Origin: Kribbella albertanoniae | GTDB lineage: Bacteria; Actinomycetota; Actinomycetes; Propionibacteriales; Kribbellaceae | Reading direction: 5' to 3' | Length of the DNA stretch: 64,000 nucleotides | NCBI RefSeq assembly: GCF_004348455.1 | Contig: NZ_SMKA01000017.1 | Span: 1-64,000, forward strand | Shown: piece after piece, positions 16,282 to 37,354 of the stretch | Numbering within the stretch: the stretch's first letter is position 1 | How the letters are laid out: each line of letters begins with the position of its first letter | The notes under the pieces: model-generated | Seen by the model: the letters and a program-made list of their open reading frames with translations, nothing else | What the model was told of the DNA's origin: nothing | Database searches by the model: none | Made by a program: the position numbers and the translations under genes

Positions 16282-17093
16282 CCAGCCCCCTGATCACCGT
16301 CGACGAACTGCGCACCCTGAACCCCGTGCTCATCGACGCCACCTGGAACCTGGCCGGCCCGCCCGGCCGCGAGGCGTACGACGCCGGCCACATCCCCGGC
16401 GCCTACTTCGTGGACCTCGACACCGAGCTCGCCGGACCACCCGGCCCCGGCCGCCACCCGTTGCCCGACGCAACCACAGTCACCGCCCTGGTACGCCGTA
16501 CTGGGGCGTCGGCGGACACCCCGGTGGTCGTGTACGACGCGGCGAACTCACTGGCGGCCGCACGTGCCTGGTGGATCCTCCGCTACTTCGGCCTCACCAA
16601 CGTCCGCGTGCTGGACGGCGGCCTGGCCGCCTGGCGTGCGGCCGGGGGAGAGGTGACCACCGTCGTACCGGCCGACGGCGACAGCGACTTCACCGCAACG
16701 CCCGGCCATCTACCCTTCGTCGACGCCGAAGGTGCCGCCAAGGTCGCCGCGTCCGGTGTACTCCTCGACGCCCGGGCCCCCGAACGCTTCGCCGGCGAGG
16801 TCGAGCCGATGGACAAGGTCGCCGGCCACATCCCCGGCGCAGTCAACACCCCCATGGCCGACCTCCTCACCCCCGACGGCCACTTCAAGCCAACGGAGGA
16901 CCTGGCCGCCTACTTCGCCGACCACGGAGCCACAGCCGACACCGACCTGGCCACCTACTGCGGCTCCGGCGTAACCGCCACCCACACCGCCCTGGCCCTG
17001 GAAGCAGTAGGCATCCAATCCCCCGTCTACATCGGCTCCTGGTCCGACTGGATCACCAACCCCACCCGCCCCATAGCCACCGGCCGCGACTGA
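16278..17093 (+). CDS. sseA: Thiosulfate/3-mercaptopyruvate sulfurtransferase (tandem rhodanese)
   Basis: Two-domain rhodanese of 271 residues. The N-terminal, usually inactive domain spans 5-130 (DAGHIPGAYFVDLDTEL, then AARAWWILRYFGLTNVRVLDGGLAAWRAAGG). The C-terminal domain spans 145-265 with LLDARAPERFAGEVEP, GHIPGAVNTPM and the active-site loop YCGSGVTA, whose Cys carries the persulfide. CGSGVTA is the loop type seen in 3-mercaptopyruvate and SseA-like enzymes. The GTG at 16278 is preceded by GGAGGA and overlaps the tdk stop by 4 nt. Role: sulfur transfer and cyanide or thiol detoxification in the cytoplasm. Repeat element E2 follows its stop. Confidence 0.9.
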   Translation: MTSPLITVDELRTLNPVLIDATWNLAGPPGREAYDAGHIPGAYFVDLDTELAGPPGPGRHPLPDATTVTALVRRTGASADTPVVVYDAANSLAAARAWWILRYFGLTNVRVLDGGLAAWRAAGGEVTTVVPADGDSDFTATPGHLPFVDAEGAAKVAASGVLLDARAPERFAGEVEPMDKVAGHIPGAVNTPMADLLTPDGHFKPTEDLAAYFADHGATADTDLATYCGSGVTATHTALALEAVGIQSPVYIGSWSDWITNPTRPIATGRD

Positions 17094-34633: not shown

Positions 34634-34697
34634 AAGAGACGTGGCGTCTCTTTGTTCTTCACGGTAGGCTGCGTGAATAAGAGACGCAAGGTCTCTT
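34634..34697. promoter_or_regulatory. Two 19-bp TetR operators
   Basis: AAGAGACG-TGG-CGTCTCTT at 34634-34652 and AAGAGAC-GCAAG-GTCTCTT at 34679-34697 are perfect palindromes sharing 7-bp arms; centres are 45 bp apart. They fill the 90-bp divergent space between the MFS and TetR genes, so the regulator probably represses both directions and is released by the exported drug. Confidence 0.88.
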
Positions 34698-34710
34698 GTG
34701 GGGAGTGCTC

Positions 34711-35292
34711 ATGGACCAGACGCAGCGACGCCGAGGCGCCGCACTGGAGAGCGCGTTGCTGGACGCGGCGTGGGACGAGCTGCTCGAGTCGGGCTACGCG
34801 CGGCTAACGATGGAGGCGGTCGCGGCGCGGGCGCAGACGGGCAAACAGGTCCTGTACCGGCGCTGGCCGAACCGGGCGGAGCTGGTGGTGGCGGCCATGC
34901 GGCACCGGACCGGTTCGATCGTTCAGGACGTGCCGGACACCGGCAGCCTGCGTGGCGACGTACTGGCAGTGCTGCAGCGGATGGCGGATCGCTTCGCCGC
35001 ACTCGGGCCCGACTTGATCCATGGCTTGCTGTCGGAGGCTCCCGATGTGAGCCCGGAGATCACGAGCCGGATGAGCGGCGTGATGTTGGCCATCGTGCTG
35101 CGAGCTGCGGAACGCGGCGAGATTCCGTCGGCCGCGCTACCACTCTCGGTGTTGCTGGCCCCGACCAACCTGCTGCGTCACCAGATGCTCTTGACCCGGG
35201 AGGCGCTGGAGCCGGCGACGCTCACCACGCTGGTGGACGACGTCTTCCTGCCGCTGGCTGGTGCAGGCGCTCAGGCCACGCCGACGAGCTGA
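34711..35292 (+). CDS. TetR family transcriptional regulator
   Basis: Repressor of 193 residues. Residues 9-58 form the TetR helix-turn-helix (LESALLDAAWDELLESGYAR, then MEAVAARAQTGKQVLYRRWPNRAELVVAAM, read in two parts). The C-terminal half should bind a ligand (TetR_C-like, with LDPxLI-style helices such as FAALGPDLIHGLLSEAPDVS). The ATG at 34711 follows GGGAG; a GTG slightly upstream is disfavoured because it lies against the operator. It probably controls itself and the divergent MFS exporter through the operators at 34634-34697. Its end overlaps the end of the next, convergent gene by 22 nt. Confidence 0.9.
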   Translation: MDQTQRRRGAALESALLDAAWDELLESGYARLTMEAVAARAQTGKQVLYRRWPNRAELVVAAMRHRTGSIVQDVPDTGSLRGDVLAVLQRMADRFAALGPDLIHGLLSEAPDVSPEITSRMSGVMLAIVLRAAERGEIPSAALPLSVLLAPTNLLRHQMLLTREALEPATLTTLVDDVFLPLAGAGAQATPTS

Positions 35293-35690
35293 CGTTCGGA
35301 GACGGCCGGCATCGATTCGTCGAGCAACTGGAAGAAGTAGCCGGCAGCGTCAGCGAGGGACAGTAGCCCGGCCTCGTACGACGTCCAGCCGAACTGGAGT
35401 TCGCCGTCGATGACGCGCTCGTCGGTGGCGACGGCGTACCGGCTGAGGGTTACTCGGGCTGGGCCGGTTTGGGGGTGGTGGTCGCCGCAGCCGCACTCGG
35501 CGGCGATGGTGATCGTGGTGAGGGCTTCGGCGGGGTAGTGCTGGAGTTGCAGGGTGGTGCCGCGGGCGGTGAAGCGGGCGATCGTGGCGTCAGGCAGCTG
35601 GACGAGCAGCTCGACCGGCACGGCGTGGGAGCCGGGCAGCAGGCGAAGGCCGCGGGACGCGAGGAGATCGGCGAAGGCCGGGAGATTCAT
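35271..35690 (-). CDS. Hypothetical protein behind a poly-Cys leader
   Basis: Protein of 139 residues that I do not recognise. It is soluble, with no signal peptide. Residues 60-75 hold ITIAAECGCGDHHPQTG, in which two Cys and two His could bind a metal or a redox centre. The end (YEAGLLSLADAAGYFFQLLDESM) is probably helical. The start ATG at 35690 follows CACAGGATCC, with AGGA ten nt upstream. What makes it notable is its leader: a leaderless 12-codon frame with six Cys codons (35772-35810) and an RNA segment complementary to that frame just before the ribosome site. If the leader senses cysteinyl-tRNA, this protein may serve cysteine or thiol metabolism. The function itself is unknown. Confidence 0.75.
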   Translation of the reverse strand: MNLPAFADLLASRGLRLLPGSHAVPVELLVQLPDATIARFTARGTTLQLQHYPAEALTTITIAAECGCGDHHPQTGPARVTLSRYAVATDERVIDGELQFGWTSYEAGLLSLADAAGYFFQLLDESMPAVSERQLVGVA

Positions 35691-35702
35691 GGGTGCAGGA
35701 TC

Positions 35703-35720
35703 CTGTGGGTGCTGGTGTCG
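35703..35720 (-). promoter_or_regulatory. Leader segment complementary to the poly-Cys frame
   Basis: On the minus-strand RNA, 35720-35703 (CGACACCAGCACCCACAG) can pair with the Cys-codon stretch at 35798-35776 through three blocks of five base pairs: CTGTG/CACAG, TGCTG/CAGCA and TGTCG/CGACA. The pairing would end right at the AGGA ribosome site of the 35690 gene, so occupancy of the Cys codons by a ribosome could open or close that site. Confidence 0.5.
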
Positions 35721-35771
35721 GCGGGCGGGCCTGGGAAAGGGCAGGGCCTCGTGCGCCGGAGACGGCGCGCG

Positions 35772-35810
35772 TCAGCGACAACAACAGCAACAACACAGCA
35801 GGTTCTGCAT
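35772..35810 (-). CDS. Leaderless poly-cysteine leader peptide (uORF)
   Basis: Twelve codons reading MQNLLCCCCCCR then stop. Five of the six Cys codons are TGT, a rare choice in DNA this GC-rich. Upstream on the same strand lies TTGTCG, a 17-bp spacer, CATGAT, seven bases and the ATG, which is the layout expected for a leaderless mRNA whose first bases are the start codon. Poly-Cys leaderless small ORFs act as cysteine-responsive attenuators in mycobacteria. Here the target would be the hypothetical gene starting 81 nt downstream at 35690. Too short to be found by coding statistics; the case rests on the codons and promoter fit. Confidence 0.6.
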   Translation of the reverse strand: MQNLLCCCCCCR

Positions 35811-35816
35811 GCGGAC

Positions 35817-35845
35817 GATCATGGCAGAGCCTGCGCCCGGCGACA
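35817..35845 (-). promoter_or_regulatory. Promoter of the poly-Cys leader
   Basis: On the minus strand TTGTCG (35845-35840) is followed after 17 bp by CATGAT (35823-35818), which stands seven nt before the ATG at 35810. This fits a housekeeping sigma promoter initiating at or next to the start codon. Confidence 0.5.
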
Positions 35846-35883
35846 ACACCGTCCGCGATCTGGGACAACTGTCCGTAGAAACA

Positions 35884-35929: not shown

Positions 35930-37354
35930 TCAGTCGGCCTTCTTGCCGAACATGATCTCGTCCCAGCTCGGCACGCTGGCGCGCTTCGAACCGCGCCGGG
36001 CGGGCTTCTTCTTGGGCTCCTCCGCAGGGGCAGCCTCGGCGGCCGGCTCCTCGGGAAGCTGCTCCTGAGCGGCAGGCTGGCTCGGCGCAGGCTGGCTCGG
36101 TGCAGGCTCCTCAGCCGGGCGCGCAGGGGCAGTCGGCTGGGGACGAAGCTCGGTCGGTCGTGATTCCACCGGCCGCTGCTCGGCAGGGCGAGGGGTGGCA
36201 TCCATGGGGCGACGCTCGACCGGGCGCGGAGGCGCCGAGGGAGTCGCCGCGGCAGGACGCTCGTACGGCGGTTGGGCCGGCGGCTGCTCGTTGCGGGGCG
36301 GCTGCGGTTCGGCGGGACGCTCGGGAGCGTTGCGCGACTCCGGGAACGGCGGCGCATCCCGTCGCTCGGTGAACGGGTTCGATGGCGGTGCCGCGCGCTC
36401 CTCCGGGGGAGCGAATGCCGCGGACTCGGCCGGCGGCTGCGCCGGACGCTCGACCGCGCGAACCGTCGGGTGCAACGCCGGCGGCTGCTCGATCGGTACG
36501 TCGATCAGCGTCGGCTCTTCATCCGGATTCGGCACCGAGTGCACCCGCCGCGGACCACGCTCGGCATCGCGAGAAACCGGCTGGTTTCCGGGCTGGTTGC
36601 GGCGCGGAAGACTGATCGTGTCCTCGAAGCCGGCCTCGTACGAATCGGCGCCATGATCCGGAGCCACCGACAGGTCGATGTCCGCGACAGCGGTCAACCG
36701 TCGCTCGCCCACAACCGGCTGCACCGGCGGCGGCAGCACCTGCGCCTGCTCACCGACCAGCCAGCGCGCCTCGTCGTCGTCCGGAACGGCGTAGCGCCCC
36801 GGAGCGTCGTACGCGAAGAGCGCGATTTTCTCTTCCTTCTGCTCGGAATCAGGATCCGAGAGGTCTTCGGCCTCGACGAAGTACGAGACCCGGACCTGCC
36901 AGCGGCCGTCGTCGCGCCGCCAGGCGTCCCAGTCGGCGGTGGTCGGATCGACGTGCCGGGTCCGCAGCCGCTCGGTCACCCACGCACCGAGATTGCGGGT
37001 CGGCGCGTCGGCTCCACCGCGGCGCCGTACTGAGGCACGCTGGGCCAGGTTCGCGATGTGGTCCCGCTCGGCCAGGACCGGCCCGGCGAAGGCCATCACG
37101 CGTTCCATCGGCATCTGGGCGACCGCGGCAACCGCCTCGGGACTCTCCCCGGCACGGATCCGAGCCTGGATGTCTCGTGGGCGCAGCGCGCTCTCCATTT
37201 GAATCTCCAGCTGGCCGAGTCGGGCACGGTCGCCGCGCAGGGCCGCACGCAACCGGTCGTCGACCGGGACGGCGAACTCCTCACCCGTCTCGGGCATTGC
37301 CAGGATCAGCTGTGTGCCGTCCTGGCTCAGTCCGACGAGCCTCGCCTCGCGCAT
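35930..37354 (-). CDS. sepH: Septation protein SepH
   Basis: Cell-division protein of 474 residues. Residues 1-165 match the DUF3071/SepH domain: MREARLVGLSQDGTQLILAM, then a helix-turn-helix-like region LRPRDIQARIRAGESPEAVA at about 57-76 followed by VAQMPMERVMAFAGPVLAERD. The remaining 300 residues are Pro/Glu/Arg-rich and disordered, ending in a conserved-looking basic tail (KKKPARRGSKRASVPSWDEIMFG, in two parts). In Streptomyces and mycobacteria SepH binds FtsZ and promotes Z-ring assembly. It appears to be transcribed alone, with a strong terminator. The length of the disordered part varies widely in the family. Confidence 0.93.
   Translation of the reverse strand: MREARLVGLSQDGTQLILAMPETGEEFAVPVDDRLRAALRGDRARLGQLEIQMESALRPRDIQARIRAGESPEAVAAVAQMPMERVMAFAGPVLAERDHIANLAQRASVRRRGGADAPTRNLGAWVTERLRTRHVDPTTADWDAWRRDDGRWQVRVSYFVEAEDLSDPDSEQKEEKIALFAYDAPGRYAVPDDDEARWLVGEQAQVLPPPVQPVVGERRLTAVADIDLSVAPDHGADSYEAGFEDTISLPRRNQPGNQPVSRDAERGPRRVHSVPNPDEEPTLIDVPIEQPPALHPTVRAVERPAQPPAESAAFAPPEERAAPPSNPFTERRDAPPFPESRNAPERPAEPQPPRNEQPPAQPPYERPAAATPSAPPRPVERRPMDATPRPAEQRPVESRPTELRPQPTAPARPAEEPAPSQPAPSQPAAQEQLPEEPAAEAAPAEEPKKKPARRGSKRASVPSWDEIMFGKKAD

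Follow-up and report, generated by a model that had tools for sequence, protein, structure and literature searches.

A frame of twelve codons, six of them consecutive cysteine codons, stands directly ahead of a gene with no recognised relative on the minus strand of the 64-kb stretch of DNA analysed here (the window), and the question that it raises is what such a frame could be for. The frame at 35772-35810 (-) translates as MQNLLCCCCCCR followed by a stop codon, with the cysteine codons TGT TGT TGC TGT TGT TGT in an uninterrupted row at 35778-35795 (-), as the initial annotation had described. The gene that follows it (35271-35690, -) is real and conserved, and codes for a 139-aa protein, hereafter P139, that carries the CGCGDHH motif given for it at the outset and for which a comparison with Pfam, NCBIfam and PDB sequences returned nothing credible. 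A run of six TGY codons occurs once in the window, both strands considered, and in none of 100 dinucleotide shuffles of it. Genome-wide, the pattern of at least four TGY codons and then TGA within 9 nt, which covers uninterrupted cysteine runs ended by TGA, has 12 matches in 9.7 Mb, among which only 35772-35810 resembles a short ORF with a start codon and a promoter.

The promoter is laid out exactly as first claimed, with a -35 element TTGTCG (35841-35846, -), a 17-bp spacer, a -10 element CATGAT (35818-35823, -) and seven bases leading to the ATG at 35810. Almost every Kribbella genome has CATGAT or CATCAT as the -10 element, the -35 element is TTGGCA-like in many relatives, and 37 of the 38 Kribbella genomes have 7 nt between the -10-like hexamer and the ATG of the short ORF. 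In a second family the short ORF likewise starts 6-7 nt after hexamers of the CAGACT, CACAAT or TATAGT type. We infer from the sequence that the transcript would start at the AUG of the short ORF itself. An in-frame ATG further upstream (MIVRMQNLL...) was considered as the start codon and rejected, as it falls within the -10 hexamer and disappears in genomes that have CATCAT there (L016, L023, L027, L028 and L038).

The initial annotation had suggested comparing orthologous leaders for runs of cysteine codons, and the comparison bears the reading out. P139 is present in all 38 genomes searched of the Kribbella family, all of one genus, and an order-wide query with the single sequence also recovered it from eight genomes of the second family (three of them named Actinopolymorpha) and from a single third-family genome; the single-sequence query of 295 other genomes across the phylum gave no match. 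All 47 readable leaders (38 Kribbella, 8 second-family and 1 third-family), which come from genomes related to each other so that tests across them are not independent, hold a cysteine-rich short ORF that ends 58-100 nt 5' of the P139 gene. The start, stop, frame and cysteine codons are kept in 38/38 Kribbella genomes (for example MQMLCCCCCR, MRISLCCRCCCR and MQMLCCCCCQCCH), and cysteine-rich counterparts are found in the nine further orthologs, those of the second family including MRSGVLHRCCCCC, MRFDVLCRCCCR and MSFRVLCRCCCC. A record titled Streptomyces sp. SID13031 (L079, NZ_JAAGLV010000005.1) holds a Kribbella-type locus, at 70% identity, with a Kribbella-type leader, and the Streptomyces name on this record is probably wrong.

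Within Kribbella, the cysteine tract has indels of 3, 6 or 9 nt, in contrast to the spacer 3' of the stop codon, whose length ranges freely between 77 and 100 nt. Gaps in multiples of three in the tract, set against a spacer that varies, are the mark of a frame that is translated. In several genomes an arginine, serine or leucine codon takes the place of a single inner cysteine codon, as expected if the codons, and not a peptide, matter. These swaps, which fit codon sensing, make it extremely improbable that the short ORF encodes a functional cysteine-rich micropeptide, binding metal or thiols for example, and is merely co-transcribed with the next gene; the residues flanking the cysteine run are moreover variable and the mRNA of the short ORF pairs with the ribosome-binding site (RBS) of the next gene, although a micropeptide would agree with the conserved C-terminal CCCCCR pattern and P139 itself also has a CxC motif.

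The choice of cysteine codon points to the same pairing. In the window, 31 long ORFs with high GC3 use TGT for 16 of their 88 cysteine codons (18%), and at least five TGT among the six codons of the short ORF has a probability of about 0.001 against this usage. The initial count of five TGT codons in six is correct, but the rarity of a disfavoured codon is not the better explanation of it: since U can pair with A as well as with G on the facing strand, the preference more probably reflects a pairing constraint with the RNA 5' of the RBS of the next gene. The six cysteine codons would also form the 5' strand of a sequestering helix, in which the 3' cysteine codons (UGCUG...UGUCG) are predicted to pair with CGACACCAGCA (35710-35720, -) and CCUG..CUGUG of the short ORF is predicted to pair with the RBS itself, CACAGGA (35701-35707, -). 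Across Kribbella the pairs of UGUUG or UGUCG with CGACA and of UG(C/U)UG with CAGCA, just 5' of the RBS, are nearly invariant, and CACAGG of the Kribbella RBS has its partner in CCUG/CUGUG, where the cysteine tract starts. A separate hairpin, GCGCCG-TCTC-CGGCGC (35753-35768, -), lies directly 3' of the stop codon of the short ORF.

Folding places the probability that the RBS is paired to the short ORF at 0.75 in the window and at a mean of 0.64 over the 47 leaders, and pairing between the short ORF and the RBS zone exceeded the mean of dinucleotide-shuffled spacers in 26 of the 26 leaders tested (mean z 1.9). If the ribosome is assumed to cover the P and A codons and 12 nt on each side of them, opening the region from the Shine-Dalgarno (SD) sequence to the AUG costs on average 8.8 kcal/mol in the free RNA, 4.9 with a ribosome at the first cysteine codon, 5.3 with one at the third and 6.8 with one at the stop codon; with the ribosome at the third cysteine codon, opening the RBS costs less than in the free RNA in 42 of the 47 leaders. 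Little pairing between SD and short ORF, and no release, is predicted by folding for five Kribbella leaders with MQMLCCCCC(H/Q)CCH short ORFs (L008, L014, L015, L018 and L037). What these calculations predict is an mRNA structure that hides the downstream RBS and that a ribosome on the cysteine codons would break.

Conservation of the Kribbella helix is mostly invariance, with three double changes only. The pairing of SD and anti-SD is kept with other letters in L038 (CCUGU:ACAGG) and, in the second family, in L040 (GGCGUCCU:AGGACGCC), L041 (GACGUCCU:AGGACGUC) and L043 (GGGUCC:GGACCC), and complementarity to the RBS is in this way shown, at the level of sequence, to be retained with lineage-specific compensating changes. 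In the alignment of the second family 90% of cells are paired, against 31-52% when the partners are slid by one to three columns, and its double changes number three, which is not clearly above shuffles (36 of 500 reached this number).

Base-paired cysteine codons, a TGT bias in excess of codon usage and the invariance of much of the leader would all be in keeping with a role for RNA structure only, as a riboswitch, thermosensor or protein site, with the cysteine codons arising incidentally from a UGU/UUG-rich strand and not translated for sensing. We hold this to be very unlikely, as the frame survives the 3-, 6- and 9-nt indels, the start codon stays at the leaderless position except in the most divergent leaders, and cysteine codons are kept across families with different spacers and, interspersed, in Frankia. 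Furthermore, Rfam covariance models gave no match to the leader up to E 5.

The model that most reasonably fits these observations, and that the comparative and folding evidence makes highly probable, is that the leader acts as a translational cysteine-sensing attenuator of the P139 gene, of the mycobacterial type. Transcription would begin at the AUG of the short ORF, on which a 70S ribosome would initiate without a leader. When cysteinyl-tRNA is ample, the ribosome would pass the cysteine codons and depart, and the freed cysteine tract, together with the codons preceding it, would pair with CGACACCAGCA...CACAGGA and lock the P139 RBS. When cysteinyl-tRNA is scarce, the ribosome would stall on the cysteine codons and mask that strand, leaving the P139 RBS free and allowing the 139-aa protein to be produced. 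Both the stalling on cysteine codons and cysteine as the signal are what we infer for this leader. For the poly-cysteine short ORFs of mycobacteria, Canestrari et al. reportedly described in 2020 a stalled ribosome that prevents an mRNA structure from sequestering the RBS. The initial annotation had already read the frame as a poly-cysteine leaderless attenuator, a reading that the 47/47 cysteine-rich leaders, the 7-nt spacing from the -10 hexamer (37/38 in Kribbella) and the short ORFs of Frankiaceae support; RNA folding supplies the mechanism absent from it, namely that the mRNA of the short ORF is predicted to sequester the downstream RBS.

No T-tract follows the spacer hairpins, and a terminator of the classical transcription-attenuator kind is not found in the leader. 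The leader might instead sense cysteine but control transcription, a stalled or absent ribosome altering Rho-dependent termination in the spacer, which is C-rich (GAGGCCCUGCCCUUUCCCAGGCCCGCCCGCC); Rho-dependent termination has been proposed for mycobacterial cys leaders (Seliverstov et al. 2005, PMC1262725), and a leader without a visible T-tract terminator would suit it. We consider control by Rho unlikely, since pairing between RBS and short ORF is kept across families in differing sequences and Rho control alone would not need such pairing. For the ribosome-release model that we prefer, the set of leaders is in addition a natural test, because the RNA sequence differs between leaders while the pairing of the RBS persists.

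A profile search adds Frankiaceae to the set of P139 orthologs. Most of these orthologs have a leaderless-looking cysteine-rich short ORF, for example VTLRSQTTPATARRRAGALAACPRCCPCPRAH followed by a stop codon, whose GTG start lies 6-7 nt downstream of CATAAT, and the same criterion applied to control windows gave 2 matches in 357. The cysteine codons are interspersed in the short ORFs of Frankia, and the 3' end of the Frankiaceae short ORF (CCCUCGCG) has a complementary stretch further downstream. The spacer between short ORF and gene is 270-420 nt, far longer than the 58-100 nt seen elsewhere; in L085-L097 and L099-L125 the short ORFs lie about 430-620 nt before the P139 match, and in nine loci examined no ORF of at least 50 aa was present in the spacer. 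The Frankiaceae short ORFs are probably relatives of the Kribbella leader with a different architecture.

Actinobacteria were already known to have poly-cysteine leaders. The poly-cysteine leaderless short ORFs of Mycobacterium smegmatis and M. tuberculosis are cited as cysteine-responsive attenuators in PMC9031893, PMC9094748 and PMC13236596, after Canestrari et al. (2020, 10.1111/mmi.14498), who reportedly demonstrated this action in M. smegmatis. Common to these and to the Kribbella leader are a leaderless-looking short ORF, contiguous cysteine codons and a place as first ORF of the transcript, the last being predicted in Kribbella; they differ in that several cysteine-metabolism operons are controlled together in mycobacteria, whereas in Kribbella a single uncharacterised gene family is involved and the cysteine loci tested are without a leader. 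Cysteine leader peptides have also been predicted for cys operons of Mycobacterium and Propionibacterium acnes and for cbs of Bifidobacterium longum (Seliverstov et al. 2005, PMC1262725), and the P. acnes leader is the precedent we found closest to the order of Kribbella. Those leaders are likewise short ORFs with a cysteine run near the stop codon and no intrinsic terminator, but they have other targets, no conserved terminator hairpin and a mechanism that was left open, where the Kribbella set has a conserved structure predicted to sequester the RBS. The leader peptides LeuL1, LeuL2 and TrpL1 of Streptomyces lividans (PMC8079986), for leucine and tryptophan, are leaderless regulatory short ORFs of a GC-rich actinobacterium as well, yet serve other amino acids, and several end in terminator-like hairpins. 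Of the extension to another lineage and a new target that was suggested at the outset, the lineage is new in part only, cysteine leaders having already been reported in P. acnes and B. longum (PMC1262725). Our literature searches found no paper linking a poly-cysteine leader with Kribbella or Frankia; new here are the gene that is targeted, the lineages concerned and an explicit structure for release of the RBS. Cysteine-codon sensing would in this way reach further actinobacterial families, and stand ahead of a gene without a link to cysteine synthesis.

The gene 5' of the leader codes for the septation protein SepH (35930-37354, -; NF040712, E 1.4e-76), and 3' of the P139 gene lies a convergent TetR-family gene (34696-35292, +), by which the P139 gene appears to be monocistronic. 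Upstream of the -35 element a tandem dyad, GGACAGTTGTCCCAGATCGCGGAC (35851-35874, -), is kept in at least 35 of the 38 Kribbella genomes. Its pattern is GGACNNNNGTCY-N8-GGAC, which has three further matches elsewhere in the genome, all apparently within coding sequence on inspection, and its GGAC-N4-GTCC half resembles sites of the DosR/DevR type. In several second-family genomes, too, similar GGAC repeats are present at a distance of 20 nt from each other (TGGACATCGTGTCCGGATGCTGGAC). The tandem dyad is likely a transcription-factor site and would provide a second, transcriptional control.

The leader is a first clue to the purpose of P139 and provides a testable hypothesis, that the protein is induced upon cysteine shortage. 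Indeed the leader argues that P139 would serve under such shortage, and a role in cysteine or thiol homeostasis may be supposed. The AlphaFold2 model of P139 is confident (mean pLDDT 87.5), and a Foldseek search of it against PDB gave no match better than E 2. Residues C66 and C68 are invariant in 30 sequences from Kribbella, the second family and the third-family genome; in Frankiaceae the CxC motif is lost, and GW..HEAGLL and the AVPV region are kept. The fuller proposal, that P139 takes part in cysteine or thiol homeostasis as a component so far unrecognised, and has a fold unseen in solved structures, being controlled through cysteine codons in Kribbella, Actinopolymorpha and Frankia and at the level of transcription through the dyad, is put forward tentatively, at somewhat below an even chance. 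When cysH, rhodanese and PALP/cysteine-synthase-like loci were tested in the Kribbella genome, no plausible cysteine leader was seen. The window also holds a gene for a two-domain rhodanese (sulfurtransferase) at 16314-17054 (+), near which no short ORF of the cysteine-leader type was found. Finally, one Kribbella genome carries a second, frameshifted copy of the P139 gene (L032, 12383-12710), 9.4 kb downstream and without the cysteine leader.
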